Assembly (NCBI RefSeq): GCF_009664365.1
Contig: NZ_CP044310.1
Coordinates: 4,343,001 to 4,407,000, forward strand
Reading direction: 5' to 3'
Origin: Paenibacillus xylanilyticus
GTDB taxonomy: Bacteria > Bacillota > Bacilli > Paenibacillales > Paenibacillaceae
Length of the DNA stretch: 64,000 nt
Shown here: in pieces, positions 19,798 to 53,491 of the stretch
How positions within the stretch are numbered: position 1 is the first letter of the stretch
How the letters are laid out: each line of letters opens with the position of its first letter
Translations under genes and position numbers: made by a program
Notes under the pieces: model-generated
What the model was told of the DNA's origin: nothing
Seen by the model: only the letters and a program-made list of their open reading frames with translations
Databases searched by the model: none

Positions 19798-20355
19798 TTA
19801 CGCGCGGGAAGAGTATTTACCTTCACGTGTATCGATCAACAGTACATCGCCTTCGTTGATGAACAATGGCACTTGTACGTTCAGGCCAGTTTCCACTTTA
19901 GCGTTTTTGGTAGCGCCTTGAGCAGTGTTACCTTTAACGCTTGGCTCAGTCTCGATAACTTTCAACTCAACGCTTGTTGGCAGGTCAATACCGAGGATTT
20001 CACCTTGGTAGCTAACGATTTTTACGTTCATGTTTTCTTTCAGGAAGTTCAATTCCCATTCCAGCTGGTCGCTTGTCAATGTGAACTGATCGTATGTTTC
20101 GTTGTCCATGAACGTGTGCTCTGTGCCACTTGCATACAGGTAAGATACGCCACGGTTTTCGATGATCGCACGGCCAATCGTTTCACCTGCACGGAATGTA
20201 CGCTCAACGGTATTACCGTTACGCAGGTTTTTCAATTTGGAACGTACGAAGGCAGCGCCTTTACCTGGTTTAACGTGTTGGAAGTCAAGTACAGTGAAGA
20301 TATCTCCATCCACTTGTACGGTCAAGCCTGTTTTAAAATCGTTTACTGAAATCAC
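19798..20355 (-). CDS. efp: Translation elongation factor P
   Basis: 185 residues, three beta-barrel domains. It relieves ribosome stalling at polyproline. The tip loop [17 protein letters not shown] carries Lys32, the residue modified in Bacillus. The C-terminal domain ends [10 protein letters not shown]. The start is GTG at 20355, 8 bases after AGGAGG. Its neighbour upstream is the pepP-like peptidase gene, as in B. subtilis yqhT-efp, but a 314-base gap with a structured repeat lies between. Confidence 0.98.
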
Positions 20356-20448
20356 GAAAAATCCCTCCTGATATGGTTGAAAAGTAGGCGATATAAGGCG
20401 ATGGTTTATTTTATAGGTTGATTCATCTCTGAATTGCTGACCATGTGC

Positions 20449-20580
20449 TACGTGGCCGTTACGGGTTCGGATCGTTCCTCTGATCGCTGTTGTCTCCTCA
20501 TTTTCTTAATTAGACTTAACTAAGGTTTAAAATGAGGAGACAAACGCGAACGCTTCGCTTCTTCAGAATCGATTCCGCCC
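20449..20580 (-). repeat. Structured intergenic repeat, copy 1
   Basis: Shares GATCGCTGTT, then a long inverted repeat, then CGCTTCGCTTCTTCAG with a second locus at about 50512-50640. Here the stem is 15 bp perfect: TTGTCTCCTCATTTT (20490-20504) with its complement (20529-20543), and the loop itself can pair (CTTAATTA / TAACTAAG). A second small hairpin is GCGAA CGC TTCGC. It fills most of the efp-pepP gap (20356-20669), where I see no gene. Orientation is unknown; the minus strand is given because both flanking genes are on it. Confidence 0.6.
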
Positions 20581-20669
20581 CTTCACTACTTTTGCAATGA
20601 TCCAGAACAATCAGAGATAACCTGTACCTACAAAATAAAAAAAGTCTTATATCGCTAGTGGCTAGAATG

Positions 20670-21743
20670 TTAGCCGATAACGGTGAACTTCTTGTCCGAC
20701 TTCGTTAAGATATGAATGCCTGTTTCCGTGATAACCACGTCATCCTCAATACGTACGCCGCCAAGTCCATCGATGTAGATTCCCGGTTCAACGGTTACCA
20801 CCATGCCCGGTTTCAACACATCATCACTTAGCTTGGACAGGCGCGGAGCTTCATGGACTTCCATACCCAGGCCGTGGCCTGTACTGTGTCCGAATTGATC
20901 TCCATATCCGTATCCTGCAATGATATCACGTGCCAGCGCATCAGCTTCCCGTCCGGTCATGCCCGGTTTCAGGTTTTCAAGCGTATGTAACTGGGCTTCC
21001 AGTACAATATCATAAATTTTACGCAGCTCTGGTACAGGTGTACCCGTGGCAATCGTGCGTGTCAGATCTGAACAGTATCCGTCAAGCAATGCACCGAAGT
21101 CAAATGTAATTAGCTCATTTTGTCCGATGACCTTGCTGCTCGCTACGCCATGTGGCATTGCGGAACGTTCACCCGAAGCTACAATCGTGTCAAAGGAAGA
21201 GGATGTCGCTCCATGCTTGCGCATGAAAAACTCCATTTCCAAATCCACTTCACGCTCAGTCATGCCCGGTTTGGCAAACTGCAAAACGTGGCTAAACGTC
21301 GCATCGGCCAGATCAGCAGCTTTTTGCATTACAGCGATTTCATCCTCATCCTTGAAGATGCGAAGTTGTTCCACGATGCCGGATACAGCTTTCAATTCAA
21401 TAGATTGAAGTGCTTCAGCATAAGCGGAGTGCGTGCCAAATGTGACCGTATCCTGCTCGAAGCCAACCTCTTTGATATTTGCTGATGCCAGCAGTTCCCG
21501 CACCGATTCCATCGGTTTAGGTCCATGCTCCACAACGGTAGATCCTTTGGCTTGCTGCGGTGCCTGTGTCATATAACGAAAATCAGTCAGCAGATAGGCT
21601 TCCTGTTCCGTAATCAGCACATATCCCGCTGACCCTGTAAAGCCCGTCATGTAACGACGGTTGATCGGGTTCGTAATCAGCATTGCGGTGAGTTCGCGCT
21701 CACGCATGGCCTCACGCAACTTATTTACTCGTTTGTTTTCCAT
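20670..21743 (-). CDS. M24 family Xaa-Pro aminopeptidase/dipeptidase (YqhT-like)
   Basis: 357 residues. An N-terminal creatinase-like domain (residues 1-130, NPINRRYMTGFTGSAGYVLI) precedes a pita-bread metallopeptidase domain. The metal ligands are visible: Asp and Asp in TFDFGALLDGYCSDLTRTI, His in GHSTGHGLGMEVHEAP, Glu in VVTVEPGIYI and Glu in GVRIEDDVVIT. It cleaves X-Pro bonds from peptides. Cytoplasmic (no signal). Located between aroQ and efp as B. subtilis yqhT. Confidence 0.93.
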   Translation of the reverse strand: MENKRVNKLREAMRERELTAMLITNPINRRYMTGFTGSAGYVLITEQEAYLLTDFRYMTQAPQQAKGSTVVEHGPKPMESVRELLASANIKEVGFEQDTVTFGTHSAYAEALQSIELKAVSGIVEQLRIFKDEDEIAVMQKAADLADATFSHVLQFAKPGMTEREVDLEMEFFMRKHGATSSSFDTIVASGERSAMPHGVASSKVIGQNELITFDFGALLDGYCSDLTRTIATGTPVPELRKIYDIVLEAQLHTLENLKPGMTGREADALARDIIAGYGYGDQFGHSTGHGLGMEVHEAPRLSKLSDDVLKPGMVVTVEPGIYIDGLGGVRIEDDVVITETGIHILTKSDKKFTVIG

Positions 21744-47980: not shown

Positions 47981-50239
47981 TTACATCGAACCGTGGAAGG
48001 TCCGGTTAATGACATCCAGCTGCTGCTCACGCGTCAGTTTGATGAAGTTTACGGCATAGCCGGAAACCCTTACGGTCAATTGTGGATAGTTTTCCGGATG
48101 CTCCATGGCGTCAATCAACTGCTGACGATCGAACACGTTCACGTTCAGATGGTGAGCACCTTGACCGAAATAACCGTCCATCATGGCAACCAGATTGGAT
48201 TTGCGGGTATCAGACTCTTTACCGAGCGCTTTAGGCACAATCGAGAATGTGTTGGAGATACCGTCCAGGCTGTGTTCGTAAGGCAATTTGGCTACAGAAC
48301 CCAGAGATGCCAGTGCGCCTTTTTTGTCACGTCCATGCATCGGGTTAGCACCTGGAGCAAACGGTTCGCCTGCTTTACGTCCATCCGGTGTTGTACCGGT
48401 TTTTTTGCCGTAGACCACATTGGATGTGATGGTCAGTACGGATTGGGTTGGAATGGCATTGCGGTACGCTTTATGTTTGCGGATCATGCCCATGAAGCTC
48501 TCTACCAGTTCAACCGCGATGCTGTCGACGCTGTCTTCATTGTTACCGTAACAAGGGAAATCTCCTTCAATTTCAAAATCAACGGCGATTCCTTGCTCGT
48601 TACGAATCGGTTTCACTTTTGCATATTTAATTGCACTCAGGGAGTCGGCTGCAACGGACAGGCCGGCAATACCACAGGCCATGGTACGTACGATATCACG
48701 GTCATGCAGAGCCATCTCGATCCGTTCATAACTGTATTTGTCATGCATGTAGTGGATTACGTTAAGGGTATTCATGTACAGTTTAGCCAGCCATTCCATC
48801 ATCGGTTTGAACCGTTTCATGACCTCATTGTAGTCCAATACTTCGCTTGTAATGGCTGGATATTCCGGTCCGACCTGTGCTCCGGATTTCTCGTCGCGTC
48901 CACCATTAATCGCATACAGCAGTGCTTTCGCCAGGTTGGCACGAGCGCCGAAGAACTGCATTTGTTTACCGATCTTCATGGCCGATACACAGCAGGCAAT
49001 CCCGTAATCGTCTCCGTAGATTGGACGCATCAGATCATCATTCTCATATTGGATGGAGCTCGTTTCTATGGACACTTTGCTGCAATACTCTTTGAATGCT
49101 TCCGGAAGTTTGGTAGACCAGAGTACGGTCAGGTTTGGTTCCGGTGCAGGTCCCAGATTGTGCAGTGTGTGCAGGAAACGGAAGCTGTTTTTCGTTACGC
49201 GTGTTTCCCCGTTCACGGACATCCCGCCGATAGACTCGGTTACCCATGTCGGGTCACCGCTGAAGAGCTCGTTGTAATCCGGTGTACGCAGGAATTTGAC
49301 GATCCGCAGTTTCATGACGAAATGGTCAACCAGTTCCTGAGCCTGTTCTTCAGTCAGGAGGCCTTCCTGCAGATCACGTTCAATGTAGATATCCAGGAAT
49401 GAAGATACACGTCCAAGGGACATCGCAGCACCGTTTTGCTCTTTAATCGCAGCAAGGTAACCGAAGTACAGCCATTGGAACGCTTCTTTTGCCGTGGTAG
49501 CCGGCAGGGAAATATCGAAGCCATGCATTTCGCCCAGCTGCTTCAATTCCTGCAGAGCCCGGATTTGTTCGGATAACTCTTCACGCAGACGGATGACATC
49601 TTCATCAATGACATCCACTTCAAGAGCGTTCAGCTCTCCTTTTTTGGCGCGGATCAGGAAGTCCACCCCGTACAGAGCAACCCGGCGGTAATCGCCAATG
49701 ATGCGGCCGCGGCCGTAAGCATCAGGCAGACCCGTAATGATGCCAGCTTTGCGCGCTGCGCGCATCTCGGATGTATATGCATCGAATACACCCTGATTAT
49801 GTGTTTTGCGAATATTAGTAAATATATCAATGACTTCTTGAGGCATTTCGAAGCCGTAAGCCTGACATGCATCAATCATCATGCGGATTCCGCCTGTTGG
49901 CTGAATGGAACGTTTGAATGGAGCATCGGTTTGCACACCGACGATCTGTTCTTTGGATTGATCCAGGTACCCTGGTTGGTGAGACACGATCGTTCCCGGA
50001 GTGTTTACGTCCACATCCAGTACACCGCCGTTATCGCGTTCTTTTTTGGTCAGATCAGATACGATGTCCCACAGGTCTTTGGTGTTCTGTGTTGCCCCTG
50101 CGAGAAATGCTTCATCCCCGTAATACGGAGACAGGTTGTGTGCCAGAAAATCATTCACATCCACGGATTTGGTCCATGTGCCTTTCGTAAAGTTTCTCCA
50201 GCCTGTTTGTTGTTTTACGTCTTTTTCGATCACCGACAT
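47981..50239 (-). CDS. pflB: Pyruvate formate-lyase (formate acetyltransferase)
   Basis: 752 residues. It cleaves pyruvate with CoA to acetyl-CoA and formate in anaerobiosis. The adjacent active-site cysteines are in [13 protein letters not shown], and the radical glycine is in [15 protein letters not shown] near the C-terminus. ATG at 50239 has GGAGGGATTACT upstream; the long frame to 50302 is not family sequence. Upstream are three FNR-type palindromes and a -10 placed for class II activation. Confidence 0.98.
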
Positions 50240-50324
50240 AGTAATCCCTCCACAAATTTGGATTTCCGGACACATGACAGGGTGCAAGCAAAATCGTCTC
50301 ATCTGTGCCCAGAGCCGCGATTAA

Positions 50325-50409: not shown

Positions 50410-50473
50410 AGTATACGTCTTGCGGGTTTCACCATCTGTGATTTTTATCACAAAGTTAGTGAACTTCCTCACT
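50410..50473 (-). promoter_or_regulatory. FNR-dependent promoter of pflBA with tandem boxes
   Basis: A perfect FNR box TGTGATTTTTATCACA (50437-50452) is centred 41.5 bases from the start point implied by -10 TATACT (50415-50410), the classic class II distance. A second imperfect palindrome AGTGA-N6-TCACT (50458-50473) lies exactly 21 bases further upstream, at -62.5. No -35 is visible, as expected for an activated promoter. Confidence 0.75.
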
Positions 50474-50511
50474 CCACCTGCTGATGTGTCTCATTGACGA
50501 ATGCTTAATCC

Positions 50512-50640
50512 ACATGGTCACTACGCGGGCAGAACAACTTCCGATCGCTGTTATCCCCGGATTTTTTTATTTTTAATTTTTCAAAGGTGAACATCCGGTG
50601 ATAAAGGCGAGCGCTTCGCTTCTTCAGTTTTTTCTGCCCT
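50512..50640 (-). repeat. Structured intergenic repeat, copy 2
   Basis: Second copy of the element at 20449-20580. Stem TTATCCCCGGAT (50551-50562) pairs with ATCCGGTGATAA (50593-50604), 11 of 12 pairs. Flanks GATCGCTGTT and CGCTTCGCTTCTTCAG are as in copy 1. It lies in the 534-base pflB-adhE gap, between the FNR-dependent pflB promoter and the 3' end of adhE. The rest of that gap (50641-50773) shows no gene; CCCCTCCCGGGG at 50726-50741 may belong to an adhE terminator. Confidence 0.6.
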
Positions 50641-50773
50641 CTCCGTTATTGTGTGAATACCAAACCGTTCAACGGATCCTCAAAGGATTCCGTCATCGAC
50701 AAAAAGACGGCAATCGGGGCTCCCCTCCCGGGGAACCCTCAACCTATTGCCTAAATCCTGTTGCTATAATTGT

Positions 50774-53386
50774 TTATTCGAATCGTCCGTAGAAGGCATT
50801 GCGGTAAACGTCCGCCAGTTCAGTCACCAGCGGCAGTTTCGGATTGGCGGTTGTACATTGGTCTTCGAAAGCACGATCGGCCAGATAATCCACATGAGCT
50901 TCAAAGTCCTTGGCATTAAATCCGATTTCCTGGAACGATTCCTCAATACCGAGTGTTTTGTTCAGTTTGCGGATTGCATTGATGAGGCTGTTCACCCCTT
51001 CTTCTGTAGTACGTGCTGGCAATCCCAGAATCCGGGCAATTTCAGCATACCGCTCATCTGCTACAAAGTGCGAATATTTCGGGAATGAGGCAAATTTCGT
51101 CGGTTTTTTCGCGTTATAACGAATGACGTGCGGCATCAGAATTGCATTGGTACGTCCATGTGCGGTGTGATACTGTCCGCCCCATTTGTGCGCCAAGCTG
51201 TGGTTAATGCCCAGGAACGCGTTAGCGAAAGCCATACCGGCAATCGTCGAAGCATTATGCATTTTCTCACGTGCCAGTTTATCCCCTTGCAGCGCCGATT
51301 GCTCCAGGTATTGGAATACCAGCTGAATGGCTTTGATCGCCAGACCATCCGTGTAATCATTGGCCATAACCGATACATACGCTTCGATAGCATGAGTCAG
51401 TACGTCCATACCTGTATCTGCAACGGCTGTTTTCGGCAGTGAATAGACGAATTCAGGGTCCACGATGGCTACATCCGGAGTCAGCTCATAGTCTGCCAGT
51501 GGATATTTGGTGTTGCCCAGATTTTTATCTGTGATTACGGCAAACGATGTTACTTCCGATCCTGTACCCGACGTTGTAGGAATCGCTACGAATTTTGCTT
51601 TTGATCCAAGGCGTGGGTATTTGTAGATCCGTTTACGGATATCCATGAATTTTTGCTTCAGATCGTTGAAGTCCGTGTCCGGATATTCGTAGAACAACCA
51701 CATGGCTTTGGCAGCGTCCATTGGTGATCCACCACCAAGAGCGATAATGCAGTCAGGCTGGAAGCGGCGCATCATTTCCGTACCACGGTCTACCGTTGTG
51801 GTTGATGGATCCGGCTCTACATCCGAGAATACTTCGATTGCGACCGGCATTTGGCGTTGACGCAGGTAATGCTCCACTTTTTCCACATAGCCCAGTTTGA
51901 CCATCATGGCATCCGTAACGATGGCTACGCGAGTAATATCAGGCATTTTGGCCAGATACTGCGTTGCTCCTTTTTCGAAATACACTTTGTTCGGCACTTT
52001 GAACCATTGCATATTCACGGTACGGCGAGCCACCCTTTTCACGTTGATTAAGTTGACGGCAGTGACATTCGATGAGGTCGAGTTACGGCCATATGAACCG
52101 CATCCCAGGGTCAATGACGGCATGTTCGTGTTGTAGATGTCCCCAATGGCGCCGTGTGTGGATGGCGAATTCACGATAATCCGTCCCGTTTGCAGACGAT
52201 CCGCAAATTTGCTTATCACTTCTTCGTTATTCGAGTGAATAACGGAGGAGTGACCCATGCCGCCAAAGGCAACCACTTCCGCAGCACGCTCAATCCCTTC
52301 AGCTGCCGTTTTTACTTTGTAACAAGCCAGTACCGGACTTAATTTCTCTGCAGACAGCGGGAACTTGGTGCCGACGCCCTCAATCTCTGCTACAAGAATT
52401 TTGGTGCCAGCCGGAACCTCGATACCACACATTTGCGCAATGGTTACTGCCGATTGACCGACAATCGCCGGGTTAACCGCACATTTCTCCGCATTGATGG
52501 CACCTGCAGTCAATTTCGCAGCTTCATCCTTATTGACGAAATAACAACCGTTCGCAATCATTTTCTTTTTCACCTGATCGAAGATCGGTTCTTCGATGAT
52601 GACCGCTTGCTCGGAGGCACAGATCATACCATTGTCGAATGACTTGGACAAGATCAGATCCGTTACAGCCTGATTGATATCTGCCGTTTTCTCGATAAAG
52701 CAAGGTACGTTCCCTGGTCCCACGCCGAGTGCCGGTTTACCACAGCTGTACGCTGCACGTACCATTGCTGATCCACCTGTCGCCAGAATGAGCGCCACAT
52801 CGTTATGATTCATCAGTGCATTCGTGCGGTCCATGGAAGGATCATCAATCCACTGGATACAGTCGGCCGGAGCACCATGCTTCACCGCGGCTTCGAGCAG
52901 AATTTTGGCGGCTTCACGGCTGCAGTTCTGAGCTGAAGGGTGGAACCCAAAGATGATTGGGTTACGTGTTTTGATGGAAATCAACGCTTTGAACATCGTC
53001 GTGGATGTCGGATTGGTCACCGGTGTAATCCCCATGATAATGCCGACAGGCTCCGCTATTTTCTGGAAGCTCTCATACTCGTTATCTTCGATCACGCCCA
53101 CGGTTTTGTCATATTTGATGCTGTGGTACACATATTCTGTTGCAAAGATATTTTTCGTGATTTTATCTTCATACACTCCGCGGCCGGTTTCTTCCACCGC
53201 CATTTTGGCAAGCATCATGTGTTTGTCCAGACCTGCCAGTGCCATGGCTTGCACGATGCGGTCAATCTGTTGTTGATCCATGGACATGAATGCTGCGTGT
53301 GCTTTGTTCGCTTTGTCAATTAACGTTTGAATATACTGACCTGCTGTCGGTTCTTTTGCTGGGGCGACTTCGTTCTTTACAGCCAT
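50774..53386 (-). CDS. adhE: Bifunctional acetaldehyde-CoA/alcohol dehydrogenase
   Basis: 870 residues. The N-terminal half is an acylating aldehyde dehydrogenase with the catalytic cysteine in [17 protein letters not shown] and [19 protein letters not shown]. The C-terminal half (from about residue 450) is an iron alcohol dehydrogenase with [29 protein letters not shown] and [18 protein letters not shown]. It reduces acetyl-CoA to ethanol, regenerating NAD+. ATG at 53386 (MAVKNEV) lies 9 bases after AGGAGG; ATG 53395 is too close. A perfect FNR box lies 41.5 bases from its predicted start point. Confidence 0.97.
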
Positions 53387-53448
53387 CTCCCTCATCCTCC
53401 TAAAGGTTCGTATTGTTTTTTTGGTTTGTCTCTCTTCTTTACGTACCC

Positions 53449-53491
53449 ATCGTAACATGTCGAAAAGGTTAATTATGTGATTATTTTCACA
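53449..53491 (-). promoter_or_regulatory. FNR-dependent promoter of adhE
   Basis: TGTGATTATTTTCACA (53476-53491), a perfect FNR palindrome. A -10-like TACGAT (53454-53449) places the start point near 53442, giving the box a -41.5 position. Confidence 0.7.

Follow-up and report, generated by a model that had tools for sequence, protein, structure and literature searches.

A high-copy, hairpin-forming intergenic repeat of the family Paenibacillaceae whose copies are exchanged in place between relatives

Two copies in the spacers before efp and pflB

The stretch of DNA analysed here, called the window throughout, comprises 64,000 nt from Paenibacillus xylanilyticus (positions 4,343,001–4,407,000 within the 6.45-Mb single-contig genome). 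Two of its intergenic gaps, one between the gene for an M24-family peptidase and efp, the other between an adhE-like gene and pflB, each hold a copy of the same structured element (Table 1). No direct-repeat family in the window is longer than the one formed by the two copies, which extends over 88 nt at 73% identity (20479–20566 and 50540–50627). They have two exact words in common, CGCTTCGCTTCTTCAG at 20551–20566 and 50612–50627, and GATCGCTGTT at 20482 and 50543. Both copies are read on the minus strand, which is the strand of their neighbouring genes; we will refer to the reading direction of the element as E+.

A sequence-only reading of the window had claimed that the two gaps share these sequences together with a long stem, and this is borne out. 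The three paired changes that it reported in the stem are also present, namely 20492/20541 G-C to 50553/50602 A-T, 20498/20535 T-A to 50559/50596 G-C, and 20499/20534 C-G to 50560/50595 G-C. It had overlooked a broken pair in copy 2 (50556 C against 50599 T), and a second broken pair of this stem lies at 50563/50592. The location it gave (20449–20580 and 50512–50640) stands, but the true element is longer: the matches to the covariance model described below run past both intervals, and further inverted arms of copy 1 reach to approximately 20388–20655.

Table 1. The two copies, their parts, and the adjoining genes; positions are those of the window.
Feature	Position	Strand	Basis
Copy 1 model match, type B, outer helix CGGAATCGATT/AACGATCCG	20447–20594	-	R1 match G000:C1:4363447-4363594 minus, 123.8 bits
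Copy 1 3' flanking inverted arm, minus-strand end CTTATATCGC	20388–20446	-	End pairs with the other arm
Copy 1 5' flanking inverted arm, minus-strand start GCGATATAAGAC	20595–20655	-	Pairing with the other arm
Copy 1 main stem, one arm	20484–20504	.	Inverted repeat I12, 90% complementary
Copy 1 main stem, other arm	20529–20549	.	Inverted repeat I12
Copy 1 GCGAAGC mini-hairpin, GNA loop	20552–20558	-	[G/A]C-GN(N)A-G[C/T] conserved across copies
Copy 2 model match, type A, outer helix GGGCAGAA/TTCTGCCC	50509–50654	-	R1 match G000:C1:4393509-4393654 minus, 139.1 bits
Copy 2 GCGAAGC mini-hairpin	50613–50619	-	Exact word position and family conservation
Elongation factor P (efp), downstream of copy 1	19798–20355	-	ORF; Pfam PF08207, PF01132, PF09285
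M24-family peptidase (here pepP), upstream of copy 1	20670–21743	-	ORF; Pfam PF00557, PF01321
Pyruvate formate-lyase (pflB), downstream of copy 2	47981–50302	-	ORF; Pfam PF02901, PF01228
Aldehyde/alcohol dehydrogenase (AdhE-like), upstream of copy 2	50774–53458	-	ORF; Pfam PF00171, PF00465

One should keep in mind that these two copies are not the best examples of the start-codon placement discussed later; the distance from element to start codon is 91 nt for efp and 269 nt for pflB. A palindrome, GTGATTTTTATCAC (50438–50451), which we take to resemble a CRP/FNR-type box, is located in the interval that separates copy 2 from pflB; copy 2 may therefore be upstream of the pflB promoter, not in the leader.

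Fold, loops and family size

The conserved unit is approximately 146 nt, and longer when the flanking inverted arms are included. Read in E+ from the outside in, a typical copy has outer arms and an outer helix, followed by the first of two symmetric internal loops. Next come a second helix and the inner loop, which carries the GCGNAGC mini-hairpin; a short UCGC/GCGA helix then leads to the long main stem and its variable tip. By inspection, the outer arms often read TATATAAGTTGAAC ... GTTCAACTTATATA (complementary within copies, not counted), arms ending in TATATAAG/CTTATATA are seen in many copies, and there are two outer types, A (GGCAGAA/TTCTGCC) and B (ACGGAATCGATT/AACGATCCGT). Some copies, copy 1 among them, could instead form a local stem, GCGAA-GCG-TTCGC, that would compete with this fold.

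The covariance model, R1, was built from 23 copies aligned with MAFFT and has 146 model positions. Further covariation, which the sequence-only reading proposed to look for, was found: kept double changes occur at 19 of the 32 pairs on the MAFFT alignment, and double changes at 27 of the 32 on the model alignment of 85 distinct copies, where 97.3% of cells are paired. Since the model alignment is fitted to the structure, the MAFFT count should be taken as the more cautious. Both-side changes amount to 302 cells among the 85 copies, compared with 59.8 in shuffles (0 of 500 as high) and at most 52 when slid. RNA folding is better than in shuffles for the five copies that were folded (z -3.4 to -5.7), and DNA folding of three copies gives z -3.6 to -6.1, with one copy equalled by 1 of 200 shuffles. 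Among the imperfect pairs of the E+ strand there are 78 G-T wobbles and 14 A-C mismatches, or 39 and 14 after the removal of one wobble-rich pair (p = 8e-4), which suggests that the E+ strand is the one that folds, as RNA or as DNA, with the caveat that a structure-fitted alignment may itself favour wobbles.

The paired changes had been read as selection for structure rather than sequence. Covarying change is indeed seen in the stems, but the loops hardly change at most of their bases, so only the first part of that statement can be kept. In a scan of all 142 column triplets with ends at least 85% conserved and a free middle, GNA was found five times and the runner-up, CNG, twice. The two sides of the outer loop carry GNA in 82/85 and 78/85 copies, those of the inner loop in 79/85 and 81/85. 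The mini-hairpin has a G...A loop of 3 or 4 bases in 80/85 copies, including GTTA, GATA, and GTCA, which are not RNA GNRA loops. Its closing pair is G-C in 108, A-T in 15, and a mismatch or wobble in 6 of the 129 copies matched in two genomes (22 of 151 were not matched and were left out); as either G-C or A-T serves across copies, this pair covaries, with A-T in 3/85 on the wider alignment.

A DNA mini-hairpin is extraordinarily stable when its loop is GNA or GNNA and two or more G-C pairs close it (PMC4686876, in excerpt). We regard agreement with this rule as a lead toward single-stranded DNA and not as proof, and GNA loops in RNA may be an alternative reading of the loop pattern. The occurrence of GNA at five places suggests a defined three-dimensional fold; in a passive repeat, one would not expect loops as constrained in sequence as these. 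A nested module of approximately 38 nt is itself a hairpin whose tip, GCA or GAA, is again a GNA loop (e.g., L001, L033).

The size of the family can be gauged from a single word or from the model. With up to two mismatches allowed, the 16-mer CGCTTCGCTTCTTCAG occurs at 63 places in the genome, compared with 5 for a reversed-pattern control; a few of the 63 are inside coding sequence and are not elements (e.g., L011, L025). R1 gives 87 matches in the own genome at E ≤ 1e-3, of which 75 were kept as copies, some of them truncated, and 12 core-only matches were left out of the count; in P. illinoisensis (G012) there are 86 matches, or 76 after leaving out 10 that are core-only. The search of Paenibacillus genomes for many more copies, suggested from the window alone, returns matches in 75/75 genomes of the genus, the own genome among them. 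Chance similarity between two gaps had been the stated alternative, and it does not agree with 75 copies whose stems pair. Matches per genus genome range from 1 to at least 42. Most genomes have at least 42, and the few-copy genomes G014, G039, G024, and G009 (1, 4, 5, and 6 matches) are possibly hosts that never had, or have lost, the spreading activity.

Across the family Paenibacillaceae, with stricter filters than in the genus survey, R1 matches are present in 163/197 genomes and 13/19 genera, and in a sample of the class 21/249 genomes are matched, every one of them in Paenibacillaceae. Named hosts with a model match include Paenibacillus polymyxa (L344) and two Saccharibacillus species (L312, L348). 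Among plasmid records, copy 2 is matched only by two replicons of Paenibacillus cellulosilyticus, and phage records contain no match to it. A pattern with 15 fixed bases, run against GTDB genomes, served only as a source of host names; many of the matches among those listed are in unrelated phyla and were taken for chance. No Rfam family matches the window at the gathering score, and permissive thresholds at eight loci returned nothing relevant, with one below-gathering match at E 0.37. In a search of the open-access literature, with most subscription journals outside its scope, no description of the Paenibacillus hairpin repeat was found.

There are several unusual arrangements that the annotator may encounter. 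In another genus, G155:C1:1085188-1085703 and 3108770-3109437 are head-to-tail arrays of three and four copies with a period of approximately 171–185 nt. G239 has six near-identical copies (L435, L438, L441, L443, L445, L448) located approximately 100 bp in from one end of a repeated unit that resembles an insertion sequence, and five of these end in GGGACAGCCCCTT; these copies look like passengers spread by another mobile element. Nesting of family members is seen at L003 (G000:C1:3272184-3272505), where the beginning of a type A copy interrupts a type B copy close to the tip of the latter, and a third copy follows. Lastly, core-less miniatures that keep the outer helix and loop are found at own positions 776787 and 6394662 and at G012:C3:342405, and miniature 6394662 is 99% identical in G012.

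Turnover at orthologous sites

Of 46 alleles of the efp-pepP site, 33 are filled (24 type B and 9 type A), 8 are short and element-free (39–43 bp), one of 71 bp has only a small hairpin, and 4 were not delimited. By inspection, type A and type B alleles at this site have similar outer arms, and arms of the copy 1 kind are common to both types in other genomes.

In P. illinoisensis, 72 of the 75 own sites could be placed by their flanks, which are mostly 92–98% identical at the compared sites. A model match is present in 58 of them; among the remaining 14 there are alleles lacking the element, derivatives with deletions, and sites in tandem whose intervals are ambiguous. Requiring at least 130 aligned columns, which leaves out 1 of the 58 as short, gives 57 full-length pairs. 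Identity is at least 90% in 32 of these, so many sites are stable on this time scale, and it is below 85% in 17; two own copies drawn at random have a median identity of 79% (400 pairs). In 23 of the 57 pairs the best match is not the ortholog but another copy of the own genome, with a lead of at least 5 points in 15. Three of the 57 are inverted, one of them (6397088) at 97% identity, and in 7 pairs the module of approximately 38 nt has been gained or lost, six of these being otherwise approximately 95–99% alike. A dimer in the own genome (4449428/4449563) is a monomer in G047, and some deletion derivatives retain arms. Since dimers exist, part of what looks like replacement could have arisen from a tandem ancestor that lost one unit in one genome and the other unit in the other; a few of the own/G012 pairings are ambiguous where copies are in tandem. 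Element bodies are exchanged, flipped, shortened, and extended in place between relatives.

A rival reading is that the repeat is an ordinary MITE derived from an insertion sequence of DDE type. The hairpin would then be a by-product of long inverted ends, and change within a site would come from point mutation together with insertion beside old copies that are later lost. The inverted arms with common ends, seen in many copies by inspection, agree with such an origin, as do the confinement of class-sample matches to Paenibacillaceae, the nested and tandem copies, and those inside the insertion-sequence-like repeat of G239. However, the element-free alleles examined show no clean target-site duplication; between their shared flanks there are 3–10 bp of unrelated or arm-like filler. 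In bcr1 of the Bacillus cereus group, by comparison, there is a target duplication, and none is seen in the Paenibacillus element-free alleles. Conserved internal loops of a fixed type would not be expected of passive inverted ends either, nor would frequent replacement and inversion where the flanks are so similar. We therefore consider the ordinary DDE-type MITE an unlikely explanation.

Placement before genes and interpretation

Gene positions were obtained with our own simple codon-scored gene caller. The next gene is in the E+ sense for 63 of the 75 own copies, and 3/75 are located between convergent genes; in co-directional gaps, 55 copies run with the genes and 9 against them (p = 3.5e-9). 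Although 58/75 copies read with the replication fork (origin assumed at the contig start), an insertion bias set by the replication strand is disfavoured as the cause of orientation, because all 6 of the 6 copies between lagging-strand gene pairs follow gene direction; transcription sense fits better for the same reason, on this small sample. Among the 63 same-sense copies, the model 3' end is at most 75 nt from the start codon in 45, compared with 26.1 ± 3.2 when copies were slid within their gaps (0 of 20,000 as high), and 29 of the 63 fall in a peak 40–59 nt before it. Once its arm is included, the element adjoins the Shine–Dalgarno site in the leaders inspected. The peak looks more like selection or targeting than blind insertion.

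This placement is weaker elsewhere. The distance peak is seen again in 29 other genus genomes, represented by one top-scoring copy each, where 12 of 15 same-sense gaps are 28–79 nt, but 12 copies run with and 10 against gene direction (18 independent sites). In three other genera, after leaving out 6 of 30 loci that are copies of one insertion-sequence-like repeat, 4/14 same-sense gaps are at most 75 nt and 7/24 copies lie between convergent genes. The placement bias is therefore a feature of this clade and not of the whole family Paenibacillaceae.

Another rival is a cis-regulatory RNA class, a riboswitch-like or protein-binding leader that would control the downstream genes and owe its copies to regulation instead of mobility. 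In its favour are the strong covariation, the conserved loops, and the G-T excess on the sense strand (39 versus 14), and in the own genome 55 of the 64 co-directional copies are in sense, with the start-codon distances given above. Yet the downstream genes have no pathway or function in common: Pfam was run on 40 of 48 downstream proteins and matched 39, and the set includes enolase, SAICAR synthetase, PurS, Hsp90, UvrC, a UvrD-type helicase, the carbamoyl-phosphate synthase small chain, serine hydroxymethyltransferase, FabA-like, arabinose isomerase, KdpC, and others. A metabolite riboswitch is rejected on the mixture of genes in this set. At the same gene, moreover, presence, type, and orientation vary among relatives; short start-codon gaps are few in the three other genera, and the sense bias fades in the 29 other genus genomes; and a consensus scan found no promoter-like match in the two window gaps and one weak terminator-like match in each, away from the element 3' end. 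We judge a regulatory RNA class to be quite improbable as the explanation of the family.

As to class, the sequence-only reading had offered a dispersed structured element or a mobile palindromic repeat of REP or MITE kind. Both descriptions are upheld by the 75 copies, the strong covariation, and the polymorphism of sites, and we are fairly confident that this is a mobile structured repeat. The REP part is rejected on size, since REPs are 20–40 bp (PMC3733652, in excerpt) and the conserved unit, at 146 model positions and longer with its arms, is several times that. Terminal inverted repeats and insertion polymorphism between close relatives are both MITE criteria found here; we describe the repeat as MITE-, BOX- or bcr1-like in kind and do not file it as a MITE. 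Taken together, a set of short, non-autonomous, hairpin-forming interspersed repeats that spans Paenibacillaceae, turns over in place through its own hairpin, and in sense leaders also forms a hairpin in the mRNA is the explanation that we think probable, with less assurance than its class.

For the turnover itself, hairpin-initiated exchange is our tentative choice, somewhat short of an even call. The hairpin itself would drive the process: a strand might fold during replication, or as a cruciform, and the hairpin would be cut or skipped. The site could then be resealed from another copy by way of the shared palindromic arms, in either orientation, or would lose its core. The precedent for this is the action of SbcCD and RecA at a palindrome in Escherichia coli (PMC3315005, in excerpt). 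A copy transcribed in sense would fold the same hairpin in the mRNA just upstream of the ribosome binding site, where it could affect processing, stability, or translation of the downstream gene.

A further possibility is that the repeat is a single-stranded DNA recombination substrate, the folded strand being recognised by its shape by a recombinase or transposase. At attC sites and IS200-IS605 ends, a folded single strand with conserved unpaired bases is the recognised form, and the likeness to these systems is in working only. Such a substrate would account for both the structure and the in-place exchange or inversion, which here takes place between palindromic arms, and the three DNA folding scores as well as the 80/85 mini-hairpins that obey the DNA rule (PMC4686876, in excerpt) would agree with it. 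Set against this, orientation follows transcription in 6/6 lagging-strand cases, on only 6 copies, and RNA would account equally well for the G-T excess and for the placement ahead of start codons; we would call this substrate reading improbable. A more ambitious version, which we also hold to be unlikely and offer as a speculation, is that the repeats are interchangeable hairpin cassettes, in which a dedicated activity would exchange or flip whole hairpins at fixed sites while they are folded on a single DNA strand. If this were true, the leaders of many housekeeping genes would be re-dealt repeatedly from a family pool by means of the shared arms and the GNA core.

The probable explanation, that of a hairpin-driven interspersed repeat, can be placed beside several known families. 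ERIC sequences of the enterobacteria are palindromic in form and have internal insertions. They are intergenic repeats of a similar kind, approximately 127–140 bp in length (PMC2267715, in excerpt), from another host and compared here by description. The bcr1-bcr3 repeats of the Bacillus cereus group are MITE-like and often found in UTRs or operon spacers (PMC3446304, in excerpt), with Bcr1 measuring 147–167 bp (PMC2267715, in excerpt). They resemble the Paenibacillus repeat as interspersed intergenic repeats in Bacilli and differ in host family, again compared by description and not by sequence; in-place exchange and GNA loops are what the Paenibacillus repeat has beyond bcr1.

The BOX, RUP, and SPRITE elements of Streptococcus pneumoniae are small, interspersed, and extensively structured, they are over-represented between convergent genes, BOX is resized by boxB modules, and an effect on co-transcribed genes is suspected (PMC3049150, in excerpt). 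The Paenibacillus repeat, in contrast, is between convergent genes in 3/75 cases in the own genome and 7/24 in the three other genera, and it changes size through one nested hairpin module. Correia elements of Neisseria are mostly located immediately upstream of genes, can invert, and have transcripts that are cut by RNase III; the excerpt describing them makes no mention of subtype exchange at one site (PMC10969869). They are alike in being short, in pre-gene placement, and in inversion, and differ in host, with the comparison by description here too.

What emerges is a high-copy repeat that occurs across a whole bacterial family and has no Rfam entry. Housekeeping genes, among them those for enolase and elongation factor P, have the repeat in front of them, so it may influence how they are expressed and may also mislead comparisons between genomes. 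The five-fold GNA pattern, together with frequent replacement and occasional inversion at well-conserved sites, sets it beyond an ordinary repeat, and the turnover of long hairpins in bacterial chromosomes thereby becomes directly testable in natural strain pairs.
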